Origin: a virus
Virus record (IMG/VR): IMGVR_UViG_3300005549_000013
Location: 1 to 44,959 of that record
Direction: 5' to 3' (one strand)
Length of the DNA: 44,959 bases
Of this stretch, positions 7,484-40,065 are shown one piece after another. The notes beneath the pieces are model-generated. The model ran no database searches and had not been told where the DNA came from. It worked only from the letters and a program-made list of their open reading frames with translations. The position numbers and the translations under genes are program-made. Positions within the stretch are counted from its first letter, which is position 1; every line of letters starts with the position of its first letter.

Positions 7484-9211
7484 ATGCCCAGCGACGCCAC
7501 GGCGGCGATCACGAAACGCGAACGCTACGAGCGGCTGCGGTCCGCGCTCAAAAGCGACCGCGCGACGTTCGATGTGCACTGGCGCGAGCTCGCCGACTTC
7601 TTCTTCCCACGGCGTACGAGGTTCTGGACGGGTGATCGCAACAAGGGCGACAAGCGCAATCAGAACATCATCAACTCGACCGGCCGGTTCGCGGCGCGCA
7701 CGCTGCAATCAGGCTTACACGCCGGCCTGACCTCGCCGGCGCGCCCGTGGATGAAATTGACCGTGCCCGATCAGGAACTCGCCAGCCATCCGCCGATCAA
7801 AGAATGGCTGCGCAGCGTCACCGAGCGGATGCTCGTGCTCTTCAGCGTCAGTAACACCTACAACGTCCTGCCCATCGTCTACGGCGATATGGGCGTCTTC
7901 GGGACCGCCGCGATGGCCGTCCTCGAGGACACGCGCGATCTGTTTCGCGTCTATCAGTACCCGCTCGGCAGCTACTACCTCGCGACCGATGCGCGCGGAC
8001 TCGTGTCGACGTTCGTCCGCGACTATCAATTCACGGTGCGCCAGGTCGTCGAGCAGTTCGGGCTGCAAGAGGACGGGCGCACGATCGATTGGTCGCCCAT
8101 CAGCCGGACCGTGAAAGACCAGTGGACGCAGGGGAACTACGAAGCGCCGGTCGATTGCTGCTGGATCGTGCAGCCGAATACCGACTACCGGCGCGACCGG
8201 CTGGCGGCCAAATATCTGCCGTTTACGAGTTGTCACTTCGAAGTCGGCACCGATGAGCGCGTGTTCCTGCGCGAGAGCGGCTTCCGGACGTTTCCGATCA
8301 TGGCGCCGCGCTGGGACATCACCGGCGAAGACACCTACGGGACCGACTCGCCGGGCATGACGGCGCTCGGCGACAACAAGCAGCTCCAAATCATGGAGCG
8401 CTACAAGGGCAAGGCGATCATCAAGATGGTCGACCCGCCGCTCGTCGGGCCGCAGTCGCTCCGGTCACAGAAAACCTCGATCCTGCCGGGCGATGTCACC
8501 TACGTCGACGTGCGCGAAGGGATGCAGGGCCTGCGCTCGGTCCATGAAGTCAATCTCCGGATCGACCAACTCGCGATGGACATCGATCGCGTCGAGTACC
8601 GGATCAAGCGCGCCTTTTACGAAGACCTCTTCCTGATGCTCGCGACGTCCGATCCCATCCGCGGCGCGCAACCGCCGACGGCGCGCGAGATCGAAGAGCG
8701 CCACGAGGAAAAGCTTCTCGCGCTCGGGCCGGTCCTCGAGCGCACAAACGATGAACTGCTCGATCCGCTCATCGACCGCGTCTTCTCGTTGATGGCCACA
8801 CACAACCTGCTTCCGACGCCGCCGCAGGAACTCGAGGGCGTCGATCTGAAGGTTGAGTACGTCTCGATCCTCGCCGAAGCGCAGAAACTCGTCGGCGTCG
8901 TGGGCCAAGATCGGTTCCTGCAATCGACCTTGCCGCTCACCGAGGCCTACCCGGAAATCCGCGAAAAGATCAACATCATGCAGGTCGTCGACAACTACGC
9001 CGACATGCTCGGCGTCGATCCGCGGACGATTCGCCCGACCGAGGAAGCCGAGCAGCGCGTCGCCGCCGCGCAGCAGCAGCAGCAGCAGATGCTCGACGCG
9101 CAGCAGGCACAGACGATCGCGAAAGCCGCGAAGGATGCGTCGGGCGCGAAGATGGGCCAGGACAGCGCGCTTGATCGGCTCGTCACGCAGATGGGTGCCG
9201 GAGGCCCGTGA
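7484..9211 (+). CDS. Portal (head-to-tail connector) protein
   Basis: A 575-residue protein of the podovirus head-tail connector family (Pfam Head-tail_con type). Typical features are the N-terminal helix RYERLRSALKSDRATFDVHW, the motif ELADFFFPRRTRF, INSTGRFAARTLQSGLHAGL, and SPARPWMKLTVPD; the C-terminal part has IREKINIMQVVDNYADMLGV followed by a Gln-rich stretch (QQQQQQ at about residue 530) and a helical tail. Twelve copies form the ring at one vertex through which DNA is packaged and to which the tail adaptor binds. It is followed with a 3-base overlap by the Bbp19-like gene, as in related phages. Confidence 0.93.
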   Translation: MPSDATAAITKRERYERLRSALKSDRATFDVHWRELADFFFPRRTRFWTGDRNKGDKRNQNIINSTGRFAARTLQSGLHAGLTSPARPWMKLTVPDQELASHPPIKEWLRSVTERMLVLFSVSNTYNVLPIVYGDMGVFGTAAMAVLEDTRDLFRVYQYPLGSYYLATDARGLVSTFVRDYQFTVRQVVEQFGLQEDGRTIDWSPISRTVKDQWTQGNYEAPVDCCWIVQPNTDYRRDRLAAKYLPFTSCHFEVGTDERVFLRESGFRTFPIMAPRWDITGEDTYGTDSPGMTALGDNKQLQIMERYKGKAIIKMVDPPLVGPQSLRSQKTSILPGDVTYVDVREGMQGLRSVHEVNLRIDQLAMDIDRVEYRIKRAFYEDLFLMLATSDPIRGAQPPTAREIEERHEEKLLALGPVLERTNDELLDPLIDRVFSLMATHNLLPTPPQELEGVDLKVEYVSILAEAQKLVGVVGQDRFLQSTLPLTEAYPEIREKINIMQVVDNYADMLGVDPRTIRPTEEAEQRVAAAQQQQQQMLDAQQAQTIAKAAKDASGAKMGQDSALDRLVTQMGAGGP

Positions 9212-9591
9212 TGGCGCACGAAGCCGAAGTCCGCAACGCCGCCGATCCGCAGCAGGTCCGCCGCGCCGGCCGCCGCGACCGTGACCGGCACGCGCGCGAA
9301 CTCGAGTGGGTGCGCGCGGTCCTCGCGCACGGCGACGGGCGCGCGATGGTGTGGACGCTCCTCGAGCGCGCCGGCATCTTTCGATCGGTCTGGCACACGA
9401 GCGCGATGATTCACTACAACGCGGGCCGCCAGGATTTCGGCCATGAACTCATGGCGCTCGTGATCGAAGCGGACGAAGAAGGGTTCGAGCTGATGCAGCG
9501 CGAGGCGCGCACGCGCGCCCGCCGCGAACGGCTCGAGAACGAAGCCGCGCACACGCCGCGGCAAGGGGGCACCAATGGCGGAAGCGAGTAA
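9211..9591 (+). CDS. Bbp19-like phage protein
   Basis: Start ATG 9211 overlaps the portal stop as TGATG; a GTG three bases earlier is possible but less likely. The 126-residue product shows the conserved pattern of the Bbp19-like family: ELEWVRAVLAHGDGRAMVWT, LLERAGIFRSVWH, IHYNAGRQDFGHELMALVIE, then a Glu/Arg-rich helix. In this family the gene regularly lies between portal and scaffold genes; its function is not established. The C-terminus overlaps the scaffold gene by 17 bases. Confidence 0.75.
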   Translation: MAHEAEVRNAADPQQVRRAGRRDRDRHARELEWVRAVLAHGDGRAMVWTLLERAGIFRSVWHTSAMIHYNAGRQDFGHELMALVIEADEEGFELMQREARTRARRERLENEAAHTPRQGGTNGGSE

Positions 9592-10318
9592 GACGCCCGC
9601 GCAGGCGACCACCGAAGCGGGCGGCAGCAAGACCGGCACGGAAGCGACCGACAAGACCGGCGAGCAGACCGGCGCCGCGGCGACGACAGAGGCGGGCAAG
9701 ACCGGCGAGACCACGGGCGCCGCTGCCACCACGCAGACCGGCGCGGCCGCGGCCGCTGGCGAGACGGAGAAGAAAGCGGACGACAGCACGCAGGCGAAAA
9801 GCGAGCAGCCGGCCGGCGAGAAAAAACCAGACTCGCCGAAGGTGCCCGACAAGTACGACCTCAAGCTGCCGGCCGGCGCCGAGGCCTGGCTCGATGAGAG
9901 CGACCTCGCGCAGATCAGCACGGTCGCGAAACAACACGGCTGGACCAACGACGAAGCGCAGGCGCGGCTCGAAGAGCACGCCGACGCGCTCGTCGCGCAG
10001 AGCGCGGCGTTTCGGGCGCAGGTCGAGGCGGATAACGACTACGGCGGCGACAAACTCGAGCAGACGCAGCGCCTCGCGGCGCAGGTGCTCGATCGCGTCC
10101 GCCCGAAAGGCACGCCGCGCGGCGATGCGCTCCGCAAGATCCTCGTGAAGTCCGGCTACGGCAACAACCTCGAGGTCGTGAGTTTCCTCGCGGACCTCGG
10201 AAAACTGATGGCGGAAGATCAGCCGACGATGCGCAGCGGCGGGGGCGGGGCGACCAACGAGGATGCCGCAAGCAAACTCTACGATCACCCGACCAGCAAG
10301 GCGCTCGCGAGTACGTAA
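9575..10318 (+). CDS. Capsid scaffolding protein
   Basis: A 247-residue acidic protein. The first 90 residues are low complexity (Thr, Glu, Ala, Gly, Lys repeats such as TGEQTGAAATTEAGKTGETT), as in T7 gp9-type scaffolds. The conserved part begins at KVPDKYDLKLPAGAEAWLDE, includes FRAQVEADNDYGGDKLEQTQ and GDALRKILVKSGYGNNLEVV, and ends with a short helix-turn (SKLYDHPTSKALAST). Scaffold proteins guide procapsid assembly and leave before or during packaging. Its position between the portal group and the capsid gene fits. Confidence 0.85.
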   Translation: MAEASKTPAQATTEAGGSKTGTEATDKTGEQTGAAATTEAGKTGETTGAAATTQTGAAAAAGETEKKADDSTQAKSEQPAGEKKPDSPKVPDKYDLKLPAGAEAWLDESDLAQISTVAKQHGWTNDEAQARLEEHADALVAQSAAFRAQVEADNDYGGDKLEQTQRLAAQVLDRVRPKGTPRGDALRKILVKSGYGNNLEVVSFLADLGKLMAEDQPTMRSGGGGATNEDAASKLYDHPTSKALAST

Positions 10319-12903: not shown

Positions 12904-15900
12904 ATGGCGCATAAAACCGAGTGGCTGACCTTCTACATCGTGCTGAAGGACCCAGCCGAGGTGAAGGCCCAGCAGGCGGCGCATCCCTACGGCGTGATGG
13001 TCGCGCCGCTGACGGCGGCGACCACCTACGCGGCGCCGTGGCGCGGGTACGACGATCCGCAGACGGGCGCGCCGTATAGCTGGACGCCCTGGAGCGGCGC
13101 CAACACGAAGGGCGGCGTGTTTCCGCTCGACGTCGTGCAGTTCAACCGCAAGAGCGGCGGGTTCTGGATCTTCGGCGGCACGACGACGACCTACATCTGG
13201 CTCGGGCAATTCCGACTCGCGTCCAACGGAGTGCCGGTCGACGCCGGCGTCACGCAAGGGCCGATCAGTCTGCGGCGGTGGGTCGAGGGCTTCGAGACGC
13301 CGGGCATCCAGCCAACGGCGGCCTCGGGCACGGCGAGCGGGCTCGTGATCTGTCGCGACGCGGCGCGGCACGTCGGCGGGTACGGCCTCGCGATCCGCGG
13401 GCCGAACAATCAACTCTATTCCTTGAAACTCGGCGACGCGGCCGGCTACAACCCGGCGACGACGGTCGGCGGCATCGTCAATCGCAATCGATCGTGGGAA
13501 CGGTTCTATCTGCGGCTGCGACGCAAACCGACGACGGGCACGGTGCTCTTCTGGCGCTGCCGCGGCGTGCTGGGCGATGCGACCTCGCCCGGCCTCGCGA
13601 TGGGCATCACGACGAGCGGGCAGCTCGCACTGTTCTCGTTCGACAACGTCAGTTACACGCTGCTCGCGACGATGACGGATTCGACCTACATCACGGAGTG
13701 GGATCCGGTCACGAATCCGAAAGCCTGGCACAAGGTCGACATCATCTTCCGCTATGCGACGGCGCTGACGGTCCCCGGCAAATTGATCGCGACCGCGGCG
13801 GTCTGGATCGACAACCGGCCCGTGTTTCAGAGCGCGGCCGGGTGCCCCGGCTTGGTGCTGTCGACGGGGCACGACCTCAGCGACATGGGCAACCCGCAGT
13901 CCGGCGTCACCGACCTCGAGCTCGACATCGACGATTGGATCTGCGCCGACATCCCGTATCTCGTGGACGCCGGCGCGCGCGTCGAGTACGGCAACGGCAA
14001 AGACTTCCTCAGTGGCTCGAAAGTCGTCTGCCTGCGCGCGAAGCAGTTCAGCGCGAACCATAACGCCGCCTGGACCGGCGACTATCGCACGCTCGCGCAG
14101 GAAACCTTCGACCTGGCGGCCGTGCCGGCGACGCTGACGACGACGACCTCGGCCGCGCTCCTCGCGATCGACAGCGATGACGCCGACGTCATTGACGCCG
14201 ATCCCGGCAAGTTGGGCGTCGCCGCGCTTATGGTCATGTTGCGCTCGAGCCGCGGCACGACGAGCGGCAGTATCGGCGTCACGCTCAACGGCTCCACGAC
14301 GACCACGAACATCACACAGAGCGCGACCGGTTCGACCGCCGGCGGCGCGAACGCGGCGATCTTCGGACAGGTCGGCACGGCGGCCGCGTTCGCGGACCTC
14401 ACGCCCATCGAGCTCCGGCACACGAAAGGCGCGGATACGACGGCCGCCTACGTCGCCTCGCTCATGGCGCAGGTCGAACTCATCGGCGAGTGGGGCAAAG
14501 AGGATCATCCGCGGCCGAATACGACCGCAGACCAAGCGATCGCCGACGCGATCATCTGGCCGACGCCGAAAGGGCAGCACAACGCCGCGTATCCGCATTC
14601 GCCGTGGGCGCTGGATTCTCCGAACGCGCCACCGATTGCGCCCTACATCGTCGTCGCGGGGACCTACGTCGGCAACAACACGGGCCAGGACCTCGCGTTC
14701 CGCGCACCGGTCCATTTCTTCTTCGTGCGCCCGCTCACGGGCGGCGCGGGTGGGTTTCAGTGGTGGTCGACGATGTTGGCCTCACACCGGGCCTTCGAGC
14801 AGCAGCTCAACCCGCGCCTGGTGCACGGGCTCGAGGATCTCAGTTTCACCGGCAGCGTGAACGAGCAGCAGCAGCAGCAGTACCTGCTACGGATTGCCGG
14901 CACCGAGGCCCAAATCAATGCGATCGGCGTGACCTATCAGTACATCGCCGTGATGGACCCCGCCGGGCGGTTCTGTCTCAACACGACCGTCTCGCATCGA
15001 AGCGCCGAACCCCTCATCGTCAACAAGCTCGTCGATGCCGGCTTCACGCCGGAGTGGGCCTTCGCGTGGATCGAACTGATTGGCTCGACCACGAATCGCT
15101 TATATGCGAAGCATGCCGGCAACGCGGCGAACAAGATCGCGCACTACGGCGGCGGCGCGATCACGACCGGCCTCGCGCTCGGCGCGGGCAGCGTCTCGAC
15201 CGACACCGGCGTACACACGCTCGGTGCGGCGGCGATCCCGCTTTCGCTCTGGCGGCGCGCGGACGGCAACAACGACGCCGGGCAACCGGGTGTCGTGGCG
15301 ATCGGGACGTGGACCGGGGACGGCAGCGCCTCGCGCGCGGTGTCCTTTGCGCCATCGAGCGGCTTGCGGCCCGTATTCGCGCTCGTCTTCGGCGAGACCG
15401 GCAACGGCGTCTGGCGCGATCCGTCGCACACGGGTGTCAACTCGACGCAGGGCGCGGGGACCGACATCACGACCGGGATTACCGCCGGCGCGATCGATGG
15501 CATGAGCGTCGGCTCGAGCCTGAACACGAACGGGATTGTTTACACCTACTTCGTGCTCATGGGTTCGGCGACGGCCGGCAACGGAGGATGGTCGATCAAC
15601 GGTGAATTCATGCCGGTCGAGGCGGCGAGCCTGCCGGGCACGACACCGGACGTCAACGATCCGACGTTGATCCCTGGCTACGTCCCGCCGGCGGCGCCGG
15701 GCACGATTGTGCCGCTGCCAACCGATCCCGACCTCGATGACGGGACGGATCTCCCGGGTACCGACCTGCTGTGTAAAGACTTCACGCAGTTGATCGCGAA
15801 TCAGGCGCTCGCGCGGCTCGGCATCAGCAAGCAGATCGCGGCCATCAAAACCGAGCTCTCGATCGAAGCCGTGCATGCGCGGCTGCATATCCAGACCGAC

Positions 15901-17094
15901 GTGGACACGACGCTCCGCGATGTCCCCTGGCCGTTCGCGACGCGCTATTTCATCCTGCCGGTGGTCGCCGGCTCGCCGAGCTCGCCGGTCAACGCGGATT
16001 GGGTCTACAGCTACCGGCGGCCGTGGGATTGCGTGTTCGAGCGCCGGCTCGTCGCCAGCCGCGGCAGCGCGCCCGACCCGACGCCGCCACCCTTCGGCAT
16101 CGGCAGCGACAGCGGCGGCGGTCTCATCTACGCGAACGTCTCGCCGTGCACGCTCGAATACACGTCGCGGATCTTCTGTCCGACCTACTACGGCGACGCG
16201 CTCTTCAAGGAGGCCCTGATCTGGCGCCACGCGGCGAGCCTCGCGCCGGCGCTGACGCGCCTCGAGGACAAGGTCAGACACGCGCTCGAGCAGTACGCGG
16301 CCGTCACCGCGAAGGCCCGGCTGATTCTGAAGCCCGGTAACCCCGGCAATCCGCCGGCCGCCGTCAGCGCCTACGACACGAGCGCGACCGACATCGCGGC
16401 GAACGTCGCCGTCGTCAACCGCGCGCTCATCCGCATCGGCGCCAAGCCGATCAGCAGCTTCACCGATCAGAGTCGCGAGGCAGTCGCCGCCCTGGCGATT
16501 TTCGAAGACGAGCTGCGGACGGTGCTCCGTGATTTCGCCTGGCCGTTCGCGACGAGTTACGCGACGCCGGCCGTCGTCGGTGGATCACTCACCGCGCCGC
16601 TCAACAGCGATTGGACCTTCAGTTATCGGCTGCCGACCGATTGGGTCGCCGTGCGTCGCCTCGTGACATCGACGGGGCGCGACTACGATCCGAATCCGCC
16701 GCGCTTCCGCATCAGCACCGACGCGACGGGCGGCTTGCTCTACACGAGCGAACAGAGCGCGGTCATCGAATACACGGCGCGGACCGCCGGCACGGTGGCC
16801 CGCAGCGATGCGCTCTTCCGCGATGCGCTCGCCTGGAAACTCGCCGCCGCGCTGGCGCCCGCCTTCGCGACCGTGGTCGATCCCGAGATCGAAGAACAGC
16901 GCGGCCGCGGACCGGACAAGCCCGATCGGATCGCACGGACGAATCCGGCGCAACAGCAGTACGCGCGGCAACGGATGGTCGACTACGCCGATCGGCAGTA
17001 TCGGATCGTGCTCGTGAAAGCCGAGGTCGCGGCCGGCAACGAAAGCCAGCAGGCGCCGCCGGGAGAGGCCGAATGGATCACCGGCCGCGAGTGA
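12904..17094 (+). CDS. Fused appendage protein with two tandem gp11-like tail adaptor domains
   Basis: A 1396-residue protein. Residues 1-955 are a large beta-rich region with a probable laminin-G/concanavalin-like sandwich at about 150-345 (RFYLRLRRKPTTGTVLFWRC, LAMGITTSGQLALFSF, AWHKVDIIFRYATAL) and further glycine/threonine-rich strands, as in phage fibres. The C-terminus has two copies of the T7 gp11-like tail tubular A/adaptor fold. Copy 1, about 958-1145, has NQALARLGISKQIAAI, DVPWPFATRYFILPVV and NADWVYSYRRPWDC. Copy 2, about 1160-1350, has NRALIRIGAKPISSF, DFAWPFATSYATPAVV and NSDWTFSYRLPTDW. In known podoviruses the adaptor is a separate single-domain protein of roughly 200 residues forming a 12-fold ring under the portal. 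The gp12-like nozzle gene follows directly, as expected. Confidence 0.85.
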   Translation: MAHKTEWLTFYIVLKDPAEVKAQQAAHPYGVMVAPLTAATTYAAPWRGYDDPQTGAPYSWTPWSGANTKGGVFPLDVVQFNRKSGGFWIFGGTTTTYIWLGQFRLASNGVPVDAGVTQGPISLRRWVEGFETPGIQPTAASGTASGLVICRDAARHVGGYGLAIRGPNNQLYSLKLGDAAGYNPATTVGGIVNRNRSWERFYLRLRRKPTTGTVLFWRCRGVLGDATSPGLAMGITTSGQLALFSFDNVSYTLLATMTDSTYITEWDPVTNPKAWHKVDIIFRYATALTVPGKLIATAAVWIDNRPVFQSAAGCPGLVLSTGHDLSDMGNPQSGVTDLELDIDDWICADIPYLVDAGARVEYGNGKDFLSGSKVVCLRAKQFSANHNAAWTGDYRTLAQETFDLAAVPATLTTTTSAALLAIDSDDADVIDADPGKLGVAALMVMLRSSRGTTSGSIGVTLNGSTTTTNITQSATGSTAGGANAAIFGQVGTAAAFADLTPIELRHTKGADTTAAYVASLMAQVELIGEWGKEDHPRPNTTADQAIADAIIWPTPKGQHNAAYPHSPWALDSPNAPPIAPYIVVAGTYVGNNTGQDLAFRAPVHFFFVRPLTGGAGGFQWWSTMLASHRAFEQQLNPRLVHGLEDLSFTGSVNEQQQQQYLLRIAGTEAQINAIGVTYQYIAVMDPAGRFCLNTTVSHRSAEPLIVNKLVDAGFTPEWAFAWIELIGSTTNRLYAKHAGNAANKIAHYGGGAITTGLALGAGSVSTDTGVHTLGAAAIPLSLWRRADGNNDAGQPGVVAIGTWTGDGSASRAVSFAPSSGLRPVFALVFGETGNGVWRDPSHTGVNSTQGAGTDITTGITAGAIDGMSVGSSLNTNGIVYTYFVLMGSATAGNGGWSINGEFMPVEAASLPGTTPDVNDPTLIPGYVPPAAPGTIVPLPTDPDLDDGTDLPGTDLLCKDFTQLIANQALARLGISKQIAAIKTELSIEAVHARLHIQTDVDTTLRDVPWPFATRYFILPVVAGSPSSPVNADWVYSYRRPWDCVFERRLVASRGSAPDPTPPPFGIGSDSGGGLIYANVSPCTLEYTSRIFCPTYYGDALFKEALIWRHAASLAPALTRLEDKVRHALEQYAAVTAKARLILKPGNPGNPPAAVSAYDTSATDIAANVAVVNRALIRIGAKPISSFTDQSREAVAALAIFEDELRTVLRDFAWPFATSYATPAVVGGSLTAPLNSDWTFSYRLPTDWVAVRRLVTSTGRDYDPNPPRFRISTDATGGLLYTSEQSAVIEYTARTAGTVARSDALFRDALAWKLAAALAPAFATVVDPEIEEQRGRGPDKPDRIARTNPAQQQYARQRMVDYADRQYRIVLVKAEVAAGNESQQAPPGEAEWITGRE

Positions 17095-17122: not shown

Positions 17123-19342
17123 ATGCCGCAGAGCGTGATGCAGCGCTCGTTCGCGGCCGGCGAACTCGCGCCGGCGCTGCACGCGCGCGCGGATCAAACG
17201 AAGTACGTCACCGGCCTACGGACCTGTCGCAACTTCCTCGTGCGGCGCGAGGGCGGCGTCAGTAACCGGCCCGGCCTGCGCTTCGTCAACGCGGCGAAAG
17301 ACAACGTCGCCGGCAAACTCCTGTTGCGCTACGTCGCGGCGACGCCGGGCGACAGCATTCTCATCGAGGCGGGCTCGGGCTATTTCCGGTTCTACAAAAA
17401 CGGCGCGCTCGTGCGCGTCGCCGGCGTGGCGGCCTACAACGGGGCGACGGCCTACGTGGTCGGCGATCTCGTCTCGAGCAGCGGCGTGAACTACTACGCG
17501 GTCGCGGCGACCACGGGCAACGCGCCGCCGAACACTGCGTACTGGTATCCGCTGACGTCGGATATTTACGAGATTCCCCACCCGTACGGCGCGGCGTCGC
17601 CGATGTTCAAATGGAACCAAAGCGGCAATGTCATCACGTTGACTGAGCGGGGCCAAGTGCCGCGCGAGCTCGTGTACGTCAGTGCCACGCGCTGGATTCT
17701 GCGCGACATCACGACGACGCCGACGATTGCCGCACCGACCGGCGGCGCCGGCACACCCGGTGCGGCGGGCGCCTTGACTTACCGCTACAAACTCACGGCC
17801 GCCGCGCTCGACACCTACGAAGAGAGCAATGCGTCCGCGACGATCACCGTCGCCTCGACCGCCGTCCCGACGCAGGCCGCGCCGATCGCGCTGACGTGGA
17901 ACGCGCAGGCGACCGCCGCGGAGTTCTACGTCTACGCCGATCCGTACGGCAACGATGTCTTTGGCTATATCGGCTCGAGCTCGACCAATGCGTTCAAGGA
18001 CAGCGGCATCACGCCCGACTACGATCTGACGCCGCCGGTGGCGCGTGTGCTCTACGCGAGCGCGAACAACTACCCCGAGACGAGCGCCGTCCATCAGCAA
18101 CGGCGCTTCTTCGCCAATACGAACAACGTGCCCGACGGCATCGACGGCTCGCGCATCGGCTTCGTGTCGAACTTCGGGCTCTCGACGCCGCTGCAGGACG
18201 ATGACGCGATCAGTTTCCGCGTCGCCGGCAATAATCATCATGCGGTGCATTGGCTGCTGTCGCTGAAGGTCGGGCTCATCCTCATGACGGCCGGCGGCGA
18301 GTGGACGGTCACGGGCGACGGCGGCGGCACGCTGAAGCCGCACAGCATCGAATCCGATCAGAACACCTACGTCGGGATTCATCCGACCGTGCGGCCGGTG
18401 ATTGTGGGGAACGCGATTCTGTATTCGCAGCGGCACGGCACGATCGTGCGCGAGCTCCGTTTCGATCAGCAGGTCGAGGGCCTCGCCGGCAAAGACCTCA
18501 CGATTTTCTCAACGCATCTGTTCGAGGGCAAAACGATCGTCGCGCTCGACTACCAGCAAACGCCCGACTCGATCATCTGGTTCTGTATGAGCGATGGCGC
18601 GCTGCTGGGCCTGACGTACATCCCTGAACAAGAAGTGTGGGGCTGGCATCGGCACGACTCCGGGGCCTCGGCGGTCTTCGAACAGGTCTGCGTCGTGCCG
18701 GAAGCCGGCCGGGACGTCGCCTACTTCCTCGTCAAGCGCACGATCGGCGGCGGGACCGTCCGCTACATTGAGAAACTCGAGAGTCGGATCATCGTGACGT
18801 GGAACACCGACATCTTCTTCGTCGACTCCGGCCTGAGTTACAGCGGCGCGCCGGCGACGGTGATGAGTGGGCTCTCGCATCTGAACGGCCAGGTCGTCGC
18901 CGTGGTCGGGGACGGTGCCGTCGTCTACAACGGCGATCCCGCTGGGGCGCAGGCGGCGACGTTCACCGTCGCGAGCGGACAGATCACGCTGCCGGCGGCG
19001 AAGTCGAACGTGCATATCGGGCTGCCGATTCGGTACGCCGAACTCGAGACACTCGATCTCGATGTCCAAGGCGAGGCGGTCCGCGACAAGTGGAAGCGCG
19101 AGGGCAGCGTGACGGTCCTCGTCGACAAGAGCACGCGCAGCTTCAGCGCCGGGCCGGACAGTTCGACCCTGACGCCCTACAAACCGGGCGCCTATGAATC
19201 CTCGAGCCTGAGTGTCACGGATCAACTTGAGTTCACGATCACGAGCGTGTTCACGCACGCCGGGCGCATCTTTCTCCGGCACACCGACCCGCTGCCGCTG
19301 ACTGTGCTCGGCATCATCCCGAATGTGGAGCTCGGAGGCTGA
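17123..19342 (+). CDS. Tail tubular protein B-like nozzle protein
   Basis: A 739-residue protein of the T7 gp12-like nozzle family. The N-terminus has the family pattern QRSFAAGELAPALHARADQT, KYVTGLRTCRNFLV, RREGGVSNRPGLRFVNAAKD. Two insertions are visible: residues 104-146 (YNGATAYVVGDLVSSSGVNY, then WYPL) look like a carbohydrate-binding module of the CBM5/12 (chitin-binding) type, and about 200-305 resembles an Ig/fibronectin-like beta domain (LTYRYKLTAAALDTYEESNA). The rest (GGEWTVTGDGG, SIIWFCMSDGALLGLTYIPE) is the beta-propeller-like core. Six copies usually form the tail tip that opens on host contact. The added domains may aid binding to cell-surface glycans. Confidence 0.88.
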   Translation: MPQSVMQRSFAAGELAPALHARADQTKYVTGLRTCRNFLVRREGGVSNRPGLRFVNAAKDNVAGKLLLRYVAATPGDSILIEAGSGYFRFYKNGALVRVAGVAAYNGATAYVVGDLVSSSGVNYYAVAATTGNAPPNTAYWYPLTSDIYEIPHPYGAASPMFKWNQSGNVITLTERGQVPRELVYVSATRWILRDITTTPTIAAPTGGAGTPGAAGALTYRYKLTAAALDTYEESNASATITVASTAVPTQAAPIALTWNAQATAAEFYVYADPYGNDVFGYIGSSSTNAFKDSGITPDYDLTPPVARVLYASANNYPETSAVHQQRRFFANTNNVPDGIDGSRIGFVSNFGLSTPLQDDDAISFRVAGNNHHAVHWLLSLKVGLILMTAGGEWTVTGDGGGTLKPHSIESDQNTYVGIHPTVRPVIVGNAILYSQRHGTIVRELRFDQQVEGLAGKDLTIFSTHLFEGKTIVALDYQQTPDSIIWFCMSDGALLGLTYIPEQEVWGWHRHDSGASAVFEQVCVVPEAGRDVAYFLVKRTIGGGTVRYIEKLESRIIVTWNTDIFFVDSGLSYSGAPATVMSGLSHLNGQVVAVVGDGAVVYNGDPAGAQAATFTVASGQITLPAAKSNVHIGLPIRYAELETLDLDVQGEAVRDKWKREGSVTVLVDKSTRSFSAGPDSSTLTPYKPGAYESSSLSVTDQLEFTITSVFTHAGRIFLRHTDPLPLTVLGIIPNVELGG

Positions 19343-21966: not shown

Positions 21967-24900
21967 ATGGCGCTGAACCTCTACGACGACGCGCTCGAGA
22001 CACTCGACGAGCACGGCTCCGCGGCGGCCGGAAATCCGTACGAGGAAACGCTCAAGCTGCAGGACAGCGCCCGCGAGACCTCGATTCGCCGATCAGTGAT
22101 TCAGGGTAGTGGGCTCACGCCGGAGCGGGCCGCCGAATCCCGACGCCTGTCGCAACGCCTCGGCCTGCCGCCGGCGGTCATCGAGCGGAACTTCGACAAG
22201 TTCAAGACGAGCACCGATCTCGAGGACGTCACACGCGTCGGCCGGGACGCCCCGCACCTCGGCGACTGGATGGCCGCCGATCCGAACAATGCCGCCGTTG
22301 CGAAAGACGATCTCCCGACGCTGTCGGTGATGGAACGCACGCTCGGCGTCGGGCGCCATCTCGTGAACTACGCGAAGGCCGGTTGGTCGGAATTCAAAGA
22401 AGGGCTCTACGGCAAAATCGCCGAAATCGCCGAACTCACCGAAGCCGTCACCGGCGCCACCGTGCCGCCACTGACCGAACGCGCGAAGTACGGCATGACG
22501 ACGCCGGGCACGGTCAATCTGCGCGAACAGCCAAAGGTCCAAAATCCCGACGGCACGATCTCGACGGTCGACAGTGTGGGCGTGAATCTCGAGGGGGAAG
22601 AGTTGTTACTGCCGACGGTCACGCCCGACGGCCGGCATTTCACCGGCACCGAAGACGAAGTCGTGCAGCAAGCGATCGCCGAGTACCAGAAGACCGGCCG
22701 GCATCTCGGCATCTTCAGTTCGCCGGAGGGCGCGAGCGCCTACGCGCAGCAGCTCCACGAAGAGTACGCCGCGGGCAAGTACGACACGCCGACAGCGGCC
22801 GCGCAGATCGCGGCGGCCGGCCGGGCCGCAGCGGCGATCGCTGGTAACCTCGCGCAGCAGCAGCGCGGCTCTCAACGGGGGATGGGCTTCGTTGAGCGCG
22901 CCGTGTACGGCGGCGTCGAGTCCTTCGTGCAGAACGTGCCCGGCCTCGTGGCGGGGTTCGCGACCGGACCAGGCGCGGCGCTCACGTTGGCTGGCGCGAC
23001 GACGAGCGGCCAGGGCTACATTCAGGCGCGCGAGCAAGGGCTCCGGCCGGAACAAGCGGCGACGTTCGGCGCGATTCAAGGCGCGATCGAAGTCGCCACC
23101 GAATTCGTCCCGGCGCACTGGTTCTTCAAGGACGTCGGCGCGAAGGCGCCGCTCATCAAGTTGATCGCGCACCAGATTGCGAGCGAGATCCCCGGCGAGG
23201 AAATCGCGACGGTGTTGCAGGACCTCAACGAATGGGCGACGCTGCCGGCGAACAAAGACCGGCCGTTCACCGACTATCTCGAAGAGCGTCCGTCCGCCGC
23301 GGCCGCGACGGCGATCAGCACGATCGTCGCGATCGGCGCGTCGACGATCCCCACGCACGCGACGGCGCGCGTGTTCGAGCAGATGGGCCAGGCGGCGCAA
23401 GAGTCTAAGACGGTTCAGCGATCGCCCGAAGCGGCGCAGGCCTTCATCGAGCAAGCGACCAGAGATGGCCCGGTCAGTCACGTGTACGCGCCGATCGACA
23501 CGTTCACGTCCTACTGGCAATCGAAGGGCGTCGACCCGAATGTCATCGCCACCGAATTGACGGGCGATCCCGAGGCCTACCGGACAGCCGTCGAGACCGG
23601 CGAGGACCTCGTCATTCCGACCGCCGCGTATGCCGTGAAACTCGCCGGCACCGAGCACAACGCGTATTTCGCGCAGGAGCTCCGGCTCGCGCCCGATCAG
23701 ATGAACGCGCGCGAGGCGCAGGCCTTCGAGGCACAGATCGCGACTGAGCAGGCCGCCGCGGCACCCGAAGCGGCACCGGCGGCCGCTGTACGGGCCAACG
23801 TCCTCGCGCAGCTCGAAGCGGCCGGCGTGCCACGGGCCACCGCCGAAAGCTACGCCACGCTCTATGAATCGGCATTCGGGGCACTGGCCGAACGGGCCGG
23901 CGTCACGCCGAGCGAACTTTTTACACGGTACGGCCTGCAGGTCACGCGCGAGGGGTTGCCGCCCACCGAGGGCGCTCCGGTTGCGCCTGGGGTGCCCGCA
24001 GCGGTCCCGACGCCCACCGTGCCGCAGACGCCGGAGGCGCGCATTCAGGCGCTCGAGGCCGAACTCGTCCGCGAACGCGAGGAACGCCGGAGCGTCGAGC
24101 GCTCCGTCGAGGTCGATCCCTTGACCGGACTCGGTAACCGCCGCGCGCTCGACAAGGCCATCGCCGCCGCGGAAGCCGATCCGAACACGTCGGTGATCTT
24201 CTTCGATGCCAACAATTTCGGGATGGTCAACAAAGCGCTGGGCAGTCACAAAGCCGGCGACGCCGTGCTCGTGCGCATCGCGCAGGCCATCCAGCAGGCG
24301 GCGACGGAAGCCGGCGTCGGCGAACGTGCATTCCGGCGGGCCGAGGGCGGCGATGAATTCGTCGTGCTCGCGCCGAGTGCGAAGGCGGATCAGATTCGAG
24401 CGCGAGCGGAGGAACTCTTCGGGGCAGAAGACTATGTGCACCCGGAGAAAGGGGCGTTTCAAGTCTCCCTCGCCGGTTCGGTGGGTCCGACCATGGAAAC
24501 GGCGGAAGCACCGCTCCAACAGGCCAAGGCCGCACGTAAAACCGCGTTGATCGAGTCTGCGCGCCAACGTGCGCCGAACTATGCACCGAGTCGCATTGAC
24601 ACGACACGAGCGACAGCAGAGACTACGCCTGATGTCCTCACCGCCGAAGGATTACCCGCCGCTGCAATTGCTGCCGGGGAAGAGCTACCAAGTGCTGCTC
24701 GAGAACGCGGTACGCCTGGTGCGGTCGGGCCGATCGAAGGGCGAGGCGCTGGCGCTGGCGTTGAACCTGGCGGGCTACCGGCCGCCGGACGAGAGCTCCG
24801 CGGACTCCCCGAGCTCGACGAAACCTTCGAGCGACGTCCCGTAGAAGAAAACCAAGCCCGCCTCACGCCCGACGTCACGCGCGAACTCGAACGCATCCGG

Positions 24901-27900
24901 GACGAGCTCTCGACCTTTCCGTTCGTTGAACGTACGTGGAACTGGATCACGACCGGCCCGAAGACCGGCACGGCGGCCGGCGGCGCGGCTGACATCGTCG
25001 CCGGCGCCGCGGGCGCAAGCGTGTATCACGACGTGCTCGCGTTCTCGCCGGTCAACAAGTTCCGTGGCCAGCCGGCACGGAAAGCGCGCGGCACGCGTGG
25101 CGATGTGCTGGGCGCCATCACGCAGGTCCTCGCGAATCGCGACATTCACAACAACCTCGCCGAAGGGGCGGTGCGCGTCGCCGAGCATCGCAACGCCGGC
25201 GATTGGTCGTTGCTCTCGTTCGATCTCACGACCCTGCCGCCGACGTGGGGCACGCCTGCGCCGCGAGAACTCACCGATCGGCTCGCTGCGGATCTCGACA
25301 CGGCGCTTAGCGAAACCGTCGAACCCGCCGGCGAGGGCGACGTTTCCTTCGATGTGACGGAATTCGAGCAAGGCCCGAAGCCGACGATCGATGTACTCGA
25401 GACCGGCGAGGAACAACAGCGATTGCCGGGCGACGTCGGCGAGGTGCGCGAGCAGGAAATCGCGACGCCGGAGCTCGAGGCGCCCTTCTCTCTGACGTCG
25501 GAAACGGCGAGCAGGAAGGTTCAGCAGACGAAGCTATTTCAAGCGCTGCAGCGCGGCGCGATTCGCTTCGGCGCCGATCGTCAAGTCGCGATCGAATTCT
25601 TCGCGCAGGCCGATCTCTCCACTTTTCTCCACGAGAGCGGGCACTTCTATCTCGAGGTCCTGCGCGACCTCGCGAACCAAGTCGCCGATCTGCCGGCCGA
25701 CGTCCGGACCGACACGCAGCAGCAGATGCTCGCCGACCTGGCGACCTTGCAGACTTGGTTCGCGGACGAAGAGCACGCCGGCGCTGGCTTCAGCGTCAAG
25801 CAACATGAGCAATTCGCGCGCGGGTTCGAAGCCTACCTAATGGAAGGCAAGGCGCCGAACGCCGAGCTCCGCTCCGTGTTCGCGCGGTTCCGGGCGTGGC
25901 TGCTCGGGATCTATCGATCGTTCCGGAGTCTGAACGTTCAACTTACACCCGAGGTCCGACACGTGTTCGACCGGATGCTCGCCACCGATGCCGCGATCGA
26001 GGCTGCGCAGCAGGACGCCCAGCAGCGGCCACTCTGGCTCACACCGGAAACGGCCGGCATGACGCCGGCGCAGTTCGAGCGCTATCGCGAACAGTTAACG
26101 GAGTCCTCGAGGAAAGCGCGTGAGCAGCTCGAGCAGCAAATCCTCGCCGAAGTGCGGCGCACGCAAACCGAGCAGTGGAAGAGTCAGCGGGCGACGATCG
26201 AAGCCGAGGTCACCGGTCAGATTCAACAGCAGCCGGTGTACCGCGCGCTCGCGGCGATGCGGACCGGCACCGAACCGGACGGCTCGCCGCTCGCAGGAAT
26301 AAAAAATATTCCTGAGCAGGGCGAGCCGCTGAAACTCTCGAAGGATCTCATCGTTGCCGAATACGGCGCCGAGCGGTTGAAAGCGCTGCCGCGCCCCTAC
26401 ATCTACACGCGCGAGGGCGGTCTGCATCCCGACACGGTTGCGCAACTCTACGGCTTTTCTTCCGGCGATCAACTCCTGACAGCGGTCAGCCAGGCGCCGA
26501 AGATGGAGACCGTGATCCAGCAGGAAACGGACCGGCGCATGCTCGCCGAGCACGGCAGTCTCTTGCTCGATGGAACCCTGCCGGAAAAGGCGCAAGCGGC
26601 CGTCGCCAACGAGGCGCGCGAAGAAGTCATCGTCGCCGAACTGAAGGCGCTGAACAAACTCCGCCGCGGCGGGCCGGCACGCATTCGGGCGGCGCTGCCG
26701 CGCGCTCAACAGGTCCGGACGTTCGCGCGCGAGCGCATCGCCCGTACGAACCTCCGCGAGATTCGGCCGCAGGTCTTCTGGGCCGCTGCCCGTCGGGCCT
26801 CGACGCAGGCCGTCGAACTCGCGGCGAAGCAAGACATCGACGGCACGATTGCCGCCAAGCAGCAGGAACTCGTGAACCTCGCGCTCTACCGCGAGGCGCA
26901 GCGCGCGAACGAGGACATCGAGAGCCGCGTGCAGCGCGCGCGGGAACTGAGCACGGGGCCGGCGCGGCAGCGCCTCGGCCTCGCCGGCGAGAGTTATCTC
27001 GATCAGGTCGACGGGATTCTCGACCGCTACGAATTCGCGCGCGTCAGTCAGAAGGCGCTCGACCGCCGGGCGTCACTGCGTAAGTGGGTCGCCGCGCAAG
27101 AAGGCGAGGGCCTGCCGATCGATCTGCCGGAGGATCTGCTCGAGGAAACGCGGCGCACGAATTACCGCGAGCTCACGTACGAGACGTTCGTCGGCGTCAC
27201 GGACGGCCTACAGCAGATCGCCCACCTGGCGCGCCTGAAGAATCGGCTCCTCAAAGCCGCCGAGCAGCGCGAACTTAGTGCGACGGCCGCGATGGTGTCC
27301 TCGTCCATCCGCGACAACGCCCGACAACCGCGGCGCCAAGGCGCCCGCGATCGACGCGTCGCCGAAGAGCGCACGCGCATGGTGGAACACTTGTTCGCCG
27401 GGCATCGTAAGCTCGCCTCGATGCTGCGCGAGATGGACGGGTTTGAGGATGGCGGCCCGGCATGGGACGCCATCATGCGCCCGCTCAACGACGCCGGCGC
27501 GCGCGAGGCGGAAATGAACGCCACGGCGACGCGGGCGCTCGCCGAGCTCGTCGAGACCGCGTACCCGAAAGCGGAGAAGCGATCGCTCTACACCAAAACG
27601 TTCGTCCCGGCGATCAACGACAGCCTCTCGAAGATGGAACGGCTGATGGTCGCGCTCAATTGGGGCAACGAGGGGAATCGGCAACGTGTGCGCGACGGCT
27701 GGCACTGGAGTGATCAGCAGGTCGCGGCCGTGCTCGAGACGCTCGACGAACGCGATTGGAAGTTCGTACAAGGCACGTGGGATCTGATCGATGGGTACTG
27801 GGGCGAGATCGCCGCCAAGCAGCGGCGCGTCTTCGGCGTGGCGCCTGAGAAAGTCGCCGCCGTCCCGATTCAGACGCGGTTCGGCGAGCAGCGCGGCGGC

Positions 27901-29355
27901 TATTTTCCGCTCAAATACGATGACCGGTTGAGCGCGACGCCGATACAGATGCTCGATCTCGAGTCGGCCAACCTCGCGAAGCAGGCGGCGTACACGCAAT
28001 CGACCACGCGCCGCGGGCACACCGAAGCGCGGCAGACGCGCGTCGAGCTCCCGCTGCGTCGGGATTTCGGGGTCATCTTCGAGCACGTGCAGCAAGTCAT
28101 CCACGATCTCAGTCATCACGAAACCCTGATCGACGTCAACCGCGTCCTCGGTCATCGCGACGTGCAGCAGGCGATCATGGACACGTACGGCGATCTCGTC
28201 TACAAGCAGATTCGCGGCACGATTCGCGACGTCGCCTTCGGAACGGTGCCGGCCACGACCGGCTTCGAGAAAGTCATCAATCACGTGCGCACCGGCGCGA
28301 CGATCGCCGGCATCGGCTGGAATCTGACGACGGCGTTTCTGCAGCCGATCGGGCTCACGAATTCGGCGGTCCGCATCGGGCCGCAGTGGGTCGCCCGCGG
28401 GTTGTATCGCTGGCTCCGCTCGCCGACGCAGATGGTCGAAACCGTCGGGTGGATTAGTGAGAAGTCGCCGATGATGCGACTGCGCGGGCAGACCATGCAG
28501 CGCGAGATCGCCGAGGTCCGGCAACAGGTCGGCGTGACGACGGGCCGGCTCTCCGGCTGGGTCGATGCCGCGATTTCGAAAACGACCTTTGATACCGTCT
28601 CGCGCCAGGCCGTCGCCGATTCGTACTTCTATCTGATTCAGCAGATGCAACGCGTCGCTGACGTGCCGACGTGGCTCGGCCAGTACGAAAAGTCGATGGC
28701 CGCCGGCGAGCCCGAAGATCGGGCGATCGCGCTGGCCGACCAAGCCGTGCTCGACAGCCAGGGCGGCGGGCAGACGAAGGACCTCTCGCAAGTCCAGCGC
28801 GGCGGGCCGATGATGAAGTTGTGGACGAACTTTTATTCGTTCTTCAACGTGCTGTATCAACAGTCGACGGAAAGCTACCGGCGGACGAAGTTTAGTGAAC
28901 CGATGCAGGTCGCGCGGCTGGCCGGCGACTATCTGATGCTCTTCATCGTGCCGGCGACGCTCGGGTACCTCGTACGGCAGGCGATGCGGCCCGGCGATCC
29001 GGAAGACGAGGACGCGCTCGCGTGGTCGCTCCTCACCGAGAACCTCTCGTATCTGGCCGGCACGATGCTCGGCCTGCGCGAGATCAGCGGCACGCTGCAG
29101 GGCTACTACGGGTACGAAGGCCCGGCCGGCGCGCGATTCTTTGCCGCGCTCGGGCGCTTCGGGCAACAGGTCAAACAGGGCGAGCTCGACACGGCGTTGA
29201 TCAAAGCGTTCAATGATACGGCCGGGATTCTGTTGCACTACCCGGCGGGCCAGGTTCGGCGCACACTAGATGGTATCGCCGCGCTGGCCGAAGGAAAGAC
29301 GGCGAACCCGATGGCGATCATCACGGGGCCGCCGCCGAAAACCGGGACACGATAA
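21967..29355 (+). CDS. Giant internal virion / large polyvalent protein with GGDEF and zincin-like domains
   Basis: A 2462-residue protein at the gp16 position. In order: residues 179-280, a domain common in phage internal proteins (LLLPTVTPDGRHFTG, TGRHLGIFSSPEGA); 305-470, hydrophobic helices; 713-875, a GGDEF domain (DPLTGLGNRRALDKAI; FFDANNFGMVNK; GGDEF at 794-798) keeping the PleD-equivalent D327, N335 and D344 positions but lacking the RxxD inhibitory site; about 875-960, low-complexity linker; 1222-1226, HESGH, a metallopeptidase-type HExxH motif followed by FEAYLMEGK; 1300-2150, helical coiled regions; 2320 onward, membrane-active helices (LMLFIVPATLGYLV). Known gp16-like proteins span the inner membrane during DNA entry. 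Here the virion protein might also make cyclic di-GMP and cut a host protein; this is inference. Confidence 0.85.
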   Translation: MALNLYDDALETLDEHGSAAAGNPYEETLKLQDSARETSIRRSVIQGSGLTPERAAESRRLSQRLGLPPAVIERNFDKFKTSTDLEDVTRVGRDAPHLGDWMAADPNNAAVAKDDLPTLSVMERTLGVGRHLVNYAKAGWSEFKEGLYGKIAEIAELTEAVTGATVPPLTERAKYGMTTPGTVNLREQPKVQNPDGTISTVDSVGVNLEGEELLLPTVTPDGRHFTGTEDEVVQQAIAEYQKTGRHLGIFSSPEGASAYAQQLHEEYAAGKYDTPTAAAQIAAAGRAAAAIAGNLAQQQRGSQRGMGFVERAVYGGVESFVQNVPGLVAGFATGPGAALTLAGATTSGQGYIQAREQGLRPEQAATFGAIQGAIEVATEFVPAHWFFKDVGAKAPLIKLIAHQIASEIPGEEIATVLQDLNEWATLPANKDRPFTDYLEERPSAAAATAISTIVAIGASTIPTHATARVFEQMGQAAQESKTVQRSPEAAQAFIEQATRDGPVSHVYAPIDTFTSYWQSKGVDPNVIATELTGDPEAYRTAVETGEDLVIPTAAYAVKLAGTEHNAYFAQELRLAPDQMNAREAQAFEAQIATEQAAAAPEAAPAAAVRANVLAQLEAAGVPRATAESYATLYESAFGALAERAGVTPSELFTRYGLQVTREGLPPTEGAPVAPGVPAAVPTPTVPQTPEARIQALEAELVREREERRSVERSVEVDPLTGLGNRRALDKAIAAAEADPNTSVIFFDANNFGMVNKALGSHKAGDAVLVRIAQAIQQAATEAGVGERAFRRAEGGDEFVVLAPSAKADQIRARAEELFGAEDYVHPEKGAFQVSLAGSVGPTMETAEAPLQQAKAARKTALIESARQRAPNYAPSRIDTTRATAETTPDVLTAEGLPAAAIAAGEELPSAARERGTPGAVGPIEGRGAGAGVEPGGLPAAGRELRGLPELDETFERRPVEENQARLTPDVTRELERIRDELSTFPFVERTWNWITTGPKTGTAAGGAADIVAGAAGASVYHDVLAFSPVNKFRGQPARKARGTRGDVLGAITQVLANRDIHNNLAEGAVRVAEHRNAGDWSLLSFDLTTLPPTWGTPAPRELTDRLAADLDTALSETVEPAGEGDVSFDVTEFEQGPKPTIDVLETGEEQQRLPGDVGEVREQEIATPELEAPFSLTSETASRKVQQTKLFQALQRGAIRFGADRQVAIEFFAQADLSTFLHESGHFYLEVLRDLANQVADLPADVRTDTQQQMLADLATLQTWFADEEHAGAGFSVKQHEQFARGFEAYLMEGKAPNAELRSVFARFRAWLLGIYRSFRSLNVQLTPEVRHVFDRMLATDAAIEAAQQDAQQRPLWLTPETAGMTPAQFERYREQLTESSRKAREQLEQQILAEVRRTQTEQWKSQRATIEAEVTGQIQQQPVYRALAAMRTGTEPDGSPLAGIKNIPEQGEPLKLSKDLIVAEYGAERLKALPRPYIYTREGGLHPDTVAQLYGFSSGDQLLTAVSQAPKMETVIQQETDRRMLAEHGSLLLDGTLPEKAQAAVANEAREEVIVAELKALNKLRRGGPARIRAALPRAQQVRTFARERIARTNLREIRPQVFWAAARRASTQAVELAAKQDIDGTIAAKQQELVNLALYREAQRANEDIESRVQRARELSTGPARQRLGLAGESYLDQVDGILDRYEFARVSQKALDRRASLRKWVAAQEGEGLPIDLPEDLLEETRRTNYRELTYETFVGVTDGLQQIAHLARLKNRLLKAAEQRELSATAAMVSSSIRDNARQPRRQGARDRRVAEERTRMVEHLFAGHRKLASMLREMDGFEDGGPAWDAIMRPLNDAGAREAEMNATATRALAELVETAYPKAEKRSLYTKTFVPAINDSLSKMERLMVALNWGNEGNRQRVRDGWHWSDQQVAAVLETLDERDWKFVQGTWDLIDGYWGEIAAKQRRVFGVAPEKVAAVPIQTRFGEQRGGYFPLKYDDRLSATPIQMLDLESANLAKQAAYTQSTTRRGHTEARQTRVELPLRRDFGVIFEHVQQVIHDLSHHETLIDVNRVLGHRDVQQAIMDTYGDLVYKQIRGTIRDVAFGTVPATTGFEKVINHVRTGATIAGIGWNLTTAFLQPIGLTNSAVRIGPQWVARGLYRWLRSPTQMVETVGWISEKSPMMRLRGQTMQREIAEVRQQVGVTTGRLSGWVDAAISKTTFDTVSRQAVADSYFYLIQQMQRVADVPTWLGQYEKSMAAGEPEDRAIALADQAVLDSQGGGQTKDLSQVQRGGPMMKLWTNFYSFFNVLYQQSTESYRRTKFSEPMQVARLAGDYLMLFIVPATLGYLVRQAMRPGDPEDEDALAWSLLTENLSYLAGTMLGLREISGTLQGYYGYEGPAGARFFAALGRFGQQVKQGELDTALIKAFNDTAGILLHYPAGQVRRTLDGIAALAEGKTANPMAIITGPPPKTGTR
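24632..24844 (+). CDS. Possible nested gene inside the giant virion gene, 70 aa
   Basis: In the +1 frame relative to the giant protein, ATG 24632 opens a 70-residue ORF to TAG 24842-24844. The product has a globular-looking core (DYPPLQLLPGKSYQVLLENA, VRLVRSGRSKGEALALALNL, AGYRPP). Its codons (CTG, GTG, AAC, TAC, GCG) follow the phage's preference, whereas the main frame here uses GGA, TTA, GCT, CTA, AGT, CGA, codons rare elsewhere in the genome, and encodes a low-complexity linker. This suggests the nested frame was, or is, the selected one. No ribosome-binding site is obvious. It may be an overprinted gene or a displaced domain. Confidence 0.45.
   Translation: MSSPPKDYPPLQLLPGKSYQVLLENAVRLVRSGRSKGEALALALNLAGYRPPDESSADSPSSTKPSSDVP
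26281..26327. repeat. Long inverted repeat with AT-rich tip inside the giant gene
   Basis: GGCTCGCC (26281-26288) pairs with GGCGAGCC (26320-26327); GCTC (26289-26292) with GAGC (26314-26317); AGGAATA (26295-26301) with TATTCCT (26307-26313), leaving an AAAAA loop and 2-base bulges. This is 19 pairs. The AT-rich tip (GGAATAAAAAATATTCC) is striking in a gene that is otherwise strongly GC-rich. It encodes GIKNIP in frame. Confidence 0.6.
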
Positions 29356-31272: not shown

Positions 31273-32550
31273 ATGGATCTGGCCCGCGCGCGCTCGCTCG
31301 CGAATCAACTCGTCGAGGCGCTCGCCGATACGCCGCCGGCACCATCGGACCGCGCGATCGACACGGTCGACGATCTCGATCGGGCGCTGAGTCTTGCGAC
31401 GCCCGGCACCGTCCTGACGCTCGACCGCACGCTCGTGTACCCCAAGCCGTTGACCATCCGCGCGAACGGCGTCACATTGCGGCCGGCCGGCGAACTCCCG
31501 CTCGAGCGCATGGTCGAGGATCTGCCGCTGCCGCGGTTCACGGACGGCCTGACGTTCGCCGGCGACGGCTCGAGCGGGGTCGGCGTCGAGGTCCGGCGCG
31601 CCAGTGCCGCCGTTGACATCGTCGTCATTCGCGGCGCTCGAGTCTCTCTTGATCGGGTGCGCGTCCTCGGCCATCCCCTCGCCGGCGGCAAACGCGGCAT
31701 TGCCGCGCACGGCAACGGCGACGTCGTCGTGACACGCTGTCACGTCGATCACTGCTTCGGGCCGTATCCTGGCGACGACACGCAGGCGATCTTCGCCGCC
31801 GACATGGCGCCCGGGCTCGTGATCGACAACAACTATCTGAGCGGCGGCAGCGAGACCCTGATGCTCGGCGGGATGGACGCGAGCAGCGCCGAGCGGATGC
31901 CGCGCGACGTCGGCATCCGGGGCAACACGATCACGAAGCGGCGCGAGTGGCAGACGCAGGCCGTCGGCGTCAAGAACCTCGTCGAGTTCAAAGCGTGCCG
32001 CGACGTGCTCTTCGCCGACAACGATTGTTCACTGAGTTGGGGCGGCCACGGGCAGACGGGGTACCTACTGATGCTCACCGTGCGCAATCAGAGCGGCGGG
32101 GCGCCGTGGTCGACCATCGCGAATCTCGACATCGTCAGCAACCGGTGGCGCGCTGGCGCCGCGGCGATCAACATCCTCGGCCGCGACAACCTGAAACCCT
32201 CGGGCGTGATGTCGAACGTGCGGATCCGGAGCAACGAATTCCTCGAGCTCGATCCGATTCGCTGGACCGGCAGCAAACAGATGATTCTGATCAGCGGCGG
32301 GCCGGACGCACTGACGATCGATAGCAACGACTTCGTCGGCAGCGGCATGACGTCCGTCGTCTATCTCGACGGCAAGACGCCGTGCACGCAACTCGCGCTG
32401 ACCAACAATCGCTGGCCGAAGACGACGTACGGCCTGTTCGGCAACAACGTCGGCGCCGCAGCGAGCAACTTCACCGAGACCAATCCTGCCTGGCAACGCT
32501 ACGTCGCCAGCGGCACGATCGCGCGCAACCTGGAGATGTCGTCGTCATGA
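31273..32550 (+). CDS. Right-handed beta-helix tailspike-like protein
   Basis: A 425-residue protein with repeated beta-helix coils: VLTLDRTLVYPKPLTIRANG, VSLDRVRVLGHPL, VVVTRCHVDHCF, LVIDNNYLSGGSETLML, IRGNTITKRREW, VLFADNDCSLSW, IVSNRWRAGAAAINIL, VRIRSNEFLEL, LTIDSNDFVGSG, LALTNNRWPKT. The N-x-I/F ladder is typical of pectate-lyase-like folds. Such phage proteins bind or cleave host polysaccharide. Active-site residues cannot be assigned from sequence alone. Its last codons overlap the ATG of a small membrane gene. Confidence 0.8.
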   Translation: MDLARARSLANQLVEALADTPPAPSDRAIDTVDDLDRALSLATPGTVLTLDRTLVYPKPLTIRANGVTLRPAGELPLERMVEDLPLPRFTDGLTFAGDGSSGVGVEVRRASAAVDIVVIRGARVSLDRVRVLGHPLAGGKRGIAAHGNGDVVVTRCHVDHCFGPYPGDDTQAIFAADMAPGLVIDNNYLSGGSETLMLGGMDASSAERMPRDVGIRGNTITKRREWQTQAVGVKNLVEFKACRDVLFADNDCSLSWGGHGQTGYLLMLTVRNQSGGAPWSTIANLDIVSNRWRAGAAAINILGRDNLKPSGVMSNVRIRSNEFLELDPIRWTGSKQMILISGGPDALTIDSNDFVGSGMTSVVYLDGKTPCTQLALTNNRWPKTTYGLFGNNVGAAASNFTETNPAWQRYVASGTIARNLEMSSS

Positions 32551-39385: not shown

Positions 39386-39388
39386 TCT

Positions 39389-40048: not shown

Positions 40049-40065
40049 CCCAAGGGATACGCATC

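Follow-up and report, generated by a model that had tools for sequence, protein, structure and literature searches.

How can a protein that carries two adaptor domains in a single chain, together with a large additional module at its N-terminus, be built into the tail of a podovirus, where a 12-fold portal is joined to a 6-fold nozzle? The question is raised by an open reading frame (ORF) at positions 12904-17094 (+ strand) of the IMG/VR virus record IMGVR_UViG_3300005549_000013, whose 44,959 nucleotides form the window analyzed here. As judged from sequence comparison and structure prediction, this ORF encodes a tail adaptor of the gp11/epsilon15-gp11 family from a 45-kb podovirus, in which the adaptor domain has undergone tandem duplication and has been joined to a large lectin-like module.

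The ORF comprises 1396 amino acid codons with no internal stops, and its product matches PHROG 394, the tail-protein family to which epsilon15 gp11 belongs, in two stretches with E=4e-53. The C-terminal part of the protein contains the pattern WPFAT-x-Y / DW / YR-x-P / EYT twice, with the WPFAT motif at residues 1009 and 1213. BLASTP aligns these copies with E=1e-34, and they share 46% identity across 157 residues. Their Smith-Waterman score is 331, whereas 1000 shuffled sequences average 33 (standard deviation 5, maximum 55). A hidden Markov model (HMM) of the adaptor delimits copy 1 to residues 964-1140 and copy 2 to residues 1167-1395; with predicted helices added, the limits become approximately 957-1141 (15772..16326, +) and 1161-1396 (16384..17091, +). 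A reading of the letters without database searches (the sequence-only reading) had placed gp11-like domains at residues ~958-1145 and 1160-1350. The pairing is borne out by BLASTP, HMM, profiles and fold, but the second domain was ended too early, as its last helix and C-terminal arm run to the C-terminus of the protein. Gp11-type proteins usually have one adaptor domain per chain; this ORF holds two, and its relatives between one and three.

The predicted structures of the two halves agree with this assignment. An AlphaFold2 (AF2) model of the adaptor part, built on a 19-row alignment, has the same order of elements in both halves, helix-helix-beta-helix-helix (predicted local distance difference test, pLDDT, 83), which corresponds to the four-helix bundle and beta (fibre-dock) domain of gp11-type adaptors. 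Foldseek searches with this model retrieved the Carin1 connector (1.6e-11), the LME-1 adaptor, KP32 TTPA and T7 gp11, with weaker matches to the ring chains of crAss001. Profiles built from one copy only matched the Carin1 connector 8ck1_E at 2e-14 for copy 1 and 2e-13 for copy 2, and the two profiles matched each other by hhalign at 2.5e-61. Since each half has its own profile matches and the same predicted fold, both are gp11-like rather than one, which answers the comparison of each half with gp11 that the sequence-only reading had proposed.

The N-terminal part, hereafter the appendage (residues 1-910, 12904..15633, +), is predicted by AF2 to be a single, multi-domain, all-beta unit (pLDDT 80.8; predicted template modelling score, pTM, 0.85). 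It is followed by a putatively disordered Pro/Gly/Asp-rich linker (residues 911-956, 15634..15771, +), in which pLDDT is mostly below 50 from residue 914 on and which is also of low confidence at the start of the adaptor model. Foldseek relates the appendage to lectin, carbohydrate-binding module (CBM) and alginate-lyase folds (E down to 2e-7, target TM-score up to ~0.56) and to phage virion proteins of ~330-360 residues. The concanavalin-like jelly roll of lectin/LamG receptor-binding proteins is thus recognized by fold: Pfam gave no match, sequence searches returned nothing significant, and tblastn against 50,697 phages found no match even at E<=1. For internal repeats, hhalign returned just a 16-column match. 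The appendage was not found as a free gene in 30 records of relatives, in which six positive controls were detected. Its folds resemble the lectin-type (LamG/ConA-like) virion proteins VpV262 Q8LT51 and that of Achromobacter phage AchV4, but these are free proteins, unlike the present module, which precedes the adaptor within a single chain. From its predicted fold and its location, the appendage probably binds a receptor. Separately, in one other contig (L083:3819-5117) a short N-terminal domain of LamG-like appearance, named by eye and unlike the appendage, precedes a single adaptor, so by sequence the fused N-terminal module may be swappable.

The same protein, at 100% identity, is present in two further metagenome contigs, one of which (L001) covers residues 175-1396 including both copies and their junction, and the other (L002) residues 1-1029. 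As the fusion is also seen in approximately 25 diverged viruses, an assembly artefact was rejected. IMG/VR scans recovered 27 distinct contigs in which the appendage is fused to one adaptor domain (App+1) and 25 in which it is fused to two (App+2; 21 with an appendage of at least 400 residues and four with a cut 5' end), plus a single contig with three (App+3, L037), in which a match to the C-terminal 148 columns of the profile confirms the appendage. Adaptors lacking the appendage occur in two copies in L050, L054 and L089 and in three copies in L079 (298-2073), which encodes a 592-residue protein with the arm on the last copy only. No multi-copy adaptors were found in 84,980 species genomes, which contained single adaptors only. 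Among the matches listed for 50,697 phage records, each is a single place of ~260-670 nucleotides. The tandem and fused designs are known from uncultured viral contigs; the searches of cultured phages and bacterial genomes revealed none.

The genomic context is that of a gp11-type adaptor. Genes for the portal (head-tail connector) protein (7484..9211, +; PF12236, 1.3e-140), a capsid-type protease (9575-10318), the major capsid protein and a Bbp16-type cement protein lie upstream of the fusion, and the gene for a 739-residue nozzle protein (17123..19342, +; phrog_376, 2e-160; Carin1 nozzle 8ck1_A, E=4.9e-95) lies directly downstream. This is the gene order of epsilon15 and BPP-1, with the fusion occupying the slot of the single 200-residue adaptor of those relatives, between the capsid and cement genes and the nozzle. 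All adaptor matches are confined to one ORF per genome. A separate second gp11 gene, which the sequence-only reading had named as evidence that would tell against it, was absent from the 30 records searched, including this genome and 21 other contigs of 43-50 kb with a fused appendage.

The two copies are not equivalent, an asymmetry evident in their sequences that the sequence-only reading had missed. Copy 2 ends in the arm motif E-x-Q...A-W-I-x-G-R (residues 1377-1396, 17032..17091, +), which is kept in App+1 domains and, more loosely, in single adaptors. The arm columns are empty in 26/26 copies 1, which also lack the invariant Glu that precedes the arm. In the topology of T7 gp11 this arm embraces the portal (PMC6702177). 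Comparison of the copy sets also identified an insert with a GRGP motif between helices 3 and 4 of copy 2 (residues ~1322-1347, 16867..16944, +); it is specific to the copy-2 set and has no counterpart in copies 1, App+1 domains or single adaptors. Going by the up-down bundle described for T7 (PMC6702177), the helix 3-4 loop would face the nozzle. The copies are joined by a linker of ~19 residues by predicted helices (residues 1142-1160, 16327..16383, +; RPGNPG...D...AAN), whose length is almost invariant across relatives and both of whose ends, by T7 topology, would lie on the portal side. In some chains the adaptor HMM is broken by inserts of roughly 20-90 residues in the fibre-dock (beta) region. 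These fall at one site in copy 1 (L042, L044, L045, L046) and at a different site in copy 2 (L038, L041, L043) and in some App+1 chains; further chains with such inserts are L072, L076, L084 and L086.

In a tree of individual adaptor domains, App+2 copies 1 form a clade (support 97/85), as do copies 2 (100/97). The appendage-free double adaptors fall with single adaptors, and the triple adaptor of L079 lies in a distant clade. This topology suggests that duplication within the chain arose more than once; a single shared origin of the tandem duplications is not rejected by the approximately unbiased (AU) test (p=0.10). One-copy and two-copy viruses are interleaved in the trees of the appendage, nozzle, portal and capsid proteins, and for the nozzle and appendage the test rejects trees that unite the multi-copy viruses in one clade (AU p 6e-42 and 1e-5, respectively). 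Full-length nozzles are mostly ~740 residues, irrespective of the number of adaptors per chain (one, two or three). Given these interleaved trees and the constant nozzle length, one- and two-copy versions appear to present the same ring surface, and the simplest reading of the sequence data is that one- and two-copy cassettes have been exchanged between phages with compatible tails. We also considered whether the App+1 domain might be a chimera of copies 1 and 2 left by collapse of the repeat. This was unsupported: the App+1 domain is nearer to copy 1 in both halves, along its whole length, and is therefore not such a chimera.

Several solved tails bear on how the two-copy chain may be assembled. 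In T7 a 12-fold gp11 ring sits on a 6-fold gp12 nozzle (PMC6702177). In SU10 two adjacent adaptors are bound by every nozzle platform, and the dock loops are not the same from one adaptor to its neighbour. The Carin1 entry 8ck1 contains two connector chains per nozzle chain, a 2:1 set that probably represents the unit of a sixfold (C6) assembly. For the protein studied here, the domain pairing, the copy asymmetry, the conservation in ~25 viruses and the interleaving of the trees are observed and the fold is predicted, whereas six chains, alternation of the copies and receptor binding by the appendage are inferred. We favor, with somewhat better than even confidence, an arrangement in which six chains form one pseudo-12-fold adaptor ring, each chain corresponding to one nozzle subunit and one appendage. 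Copies 1 and 2 would alternate around the ring under the portal, so that each chain would be the repeat unit of the six-fold tail, with two adaptor sites, one nozzle subunit and one appendage, and would amount to a covalent form of the two-connectors-per-nozzle unit. Copy 2 would hold the portal by its arm and bear the extra nozzle-side loop, and copy 1 would trade its arm for the linker and link outward to the appendage. Straight after duplication, six chains could fill the existing ring and keep its native contacts, and this would explain both the repeated origin and the interchangeability of the cassettes. Of the ring model in the sequence-only reading, the domain pairing on which it was based stands, as one ORF in ~25 viruses; the six-chain ring itself is the simplest fit, and stacking of the crAss001 type is a real alternative.

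Several results weigh against the six-chain ring, and some of them point to stacking, the main rival, which we consider less likely: twelve chains would form two covalently linked rings, copy 2 on the portal side and copy 1 on the nozzle side, giving twelve appendages and a longer tail. The precedent is crAss001, where paralogous proteins of the adaptor fold build five dodecameric rings stacked on one another (PMC10172136); the adaptor model is weakly similar to these ring chains. Copy 1 has neither the portal-contacting arm nor the Glu before it, and copy 2, beyond its nozzle-side insert, is remodelled at the nozzle-side helix ends (contrast P=0.024, post hoc, with sides assigned from T7 topology rather than from coordinates and columns treated as independent), as one half of the pattern expected for stacked rings. 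Copy 1 retains App+1-like ends of helices 1-2, which was also counted in favor of stacking. The pTM of 0.49 for the two-domain model means that packing between the domains is not confidently predicted. Three-copy chains (L037, L079) would require 12/3=4 chains, a mismatch with a six-fold nozzle, and are easily accommodated by stacking. Chains with one, two and three copies all bear the appendage, and a six-fold appendage number is therefore not conserved, whereas with stacking the number would remain 12 in one- and two-copy viruses. On the other side, stacking would need a new ring-on-ring interface as soon as the duplication occurred, yet multiplication seems to have arisen repeatedly. It predicts portal-side remodelling of copy 1, but the portal side of copy 1 is about as App+1-like as its nozzle side, and its portal-side surfaces show no remodelling against App+1 (0.35, versus 0.53 for copy 2). 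The portal-side helix ends of copy 1 still resemble those of single-copy chains, which was counted in favor of the single ring. The 19-residue linker would, moreover, need to climb the entire helix bundle.

That copy 1 lacks the arm and adjoins the appendage could also mean that just one copy enters a dodecamer of twelve chains, the other being a peripheral spacer that bears the appendage. We regard this as improbable: in 26 viruses the core signature columns (WPFAT-x-Y, DW, RR, EYT-R, D-F-A-W) are kept equally in both copies, a conservation not required of a free spacer, and three-copy chains are hard to account for in this way. Cleavage during assembly, which would release the appendage and leave a pair of ordinary adaptors, twelve from six precursors, appears highly improbable. 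A capsid-type protease is encoded upstream, as described, and the inter-copy linker has low confidence in the AF2 model, but the linker is conserved in motif and length, and there is no arm on copy 1 for cleavage to release.

If the single six-chain ring is adopted, the one-, two- and three-copy series may have a further meaning. The sequence-only reading held that the fusion fixes six fibre positions, like those of T7; in that form this is unsupported, as 27 contigs carry the same appendage on a single adaptor and L037 carries it on three, and the same reasoning would then predict 12 and 4 appendages, respectively. We tentatively raise the possibility, to which we give appreciably less than even credence, that the number of adaptor copies in a chain (1, 2 or 3) acts as a valency switch open to evolution, in which 12/n chains fill the ring and present 12, 6 or 4 appendages, with portal and nozzle unchanged and one- and two-copy cassettes traded.

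Comparison with known systems places these features in context. Epsilon15 gp11, BcepC6B gp11 and BPP-1 Bbp14 (PHROG 394) share the family, the gene position between cement and nozzle and the C-terminal arm motif, but are single proteins of ~200 residues with no appendage, in contrast to the two domains and 950-residue N-terminal part found here. Among solved structures, the Carin1 connector 8ck1_E is nearest to both adaptor copies, and the Carin1 nozzle to the nozzle; in Carin1, however, the two connector chains per nozzle chain are separate, as are the fibres, whereas here there is one chain with a fused appendage. T7 gp11, KP32 TTPA and SU10 gp11 have the same fold, with 12 adaptor domains under the portal and a six-fold nozzle, but one domain per chain and fibres that dock at the adaptor as separate trimers. 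The R1-R5 proteins of crAss001 likewise place several paralogous adaptor-fold domains in one tail (PMC10172136), as separate genes forming stacked rings of 12, unlike the tandem in one chain known here from sequence. Neither a chain with tandem adaptors nor the fusion of a receptor-binding-type module to an adaptor was described in the open-access papers searched. The adaptor family, its fold and lectin-like appendages are already known, and the tandem adaptors with a fused module are a new variant. In SU10 identical adaptor chains take two local fibre-dock conformations; a pair written into one gene with specialized copies would be a genetic answer to the 12/6 mismatch. It would also be a case of a receptor-binding-type module fused straight to the adaptor instead of a docked fibre. 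With its shared appendage and nozzle families, the natural one-, two- and three-copy series allows a direct test of how the copy number of a chain relates to symmetry and to the number of appendages.

The window contains other genes of interest. A 285-residue collagen-like protein (1929-2786, +) with GPQGPPG/GATGAT repeats and tail-fibre PHROG matches is possibly a separate fibre, and a 425-residue protein (31273-32550, +) with a weak right-handed beta-helix match may be a tailspike or depolymerase. The gp17-type N-terminal fibre anchor PF03906 had no match in 23 records, but the control was equally unmatched. In the position of internal-virion or ejected proteins, a 2462-residue protein (21967-29355, +) carries a GGDEF domain (Pfam, 5e-17; residues ~716-828) with an intact EGGDEF motif, and an LPD22 polyvalent-protein domain; on these sequence features it is a possible injected diguanylate cyclase. 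The region 38354-40809 (+) encodes a RecT-like annealing protein paired with an exonuclease, and a phage gene at 43518-44810 (+) has a weak radical-SAM match, under the Pfam cut-off.

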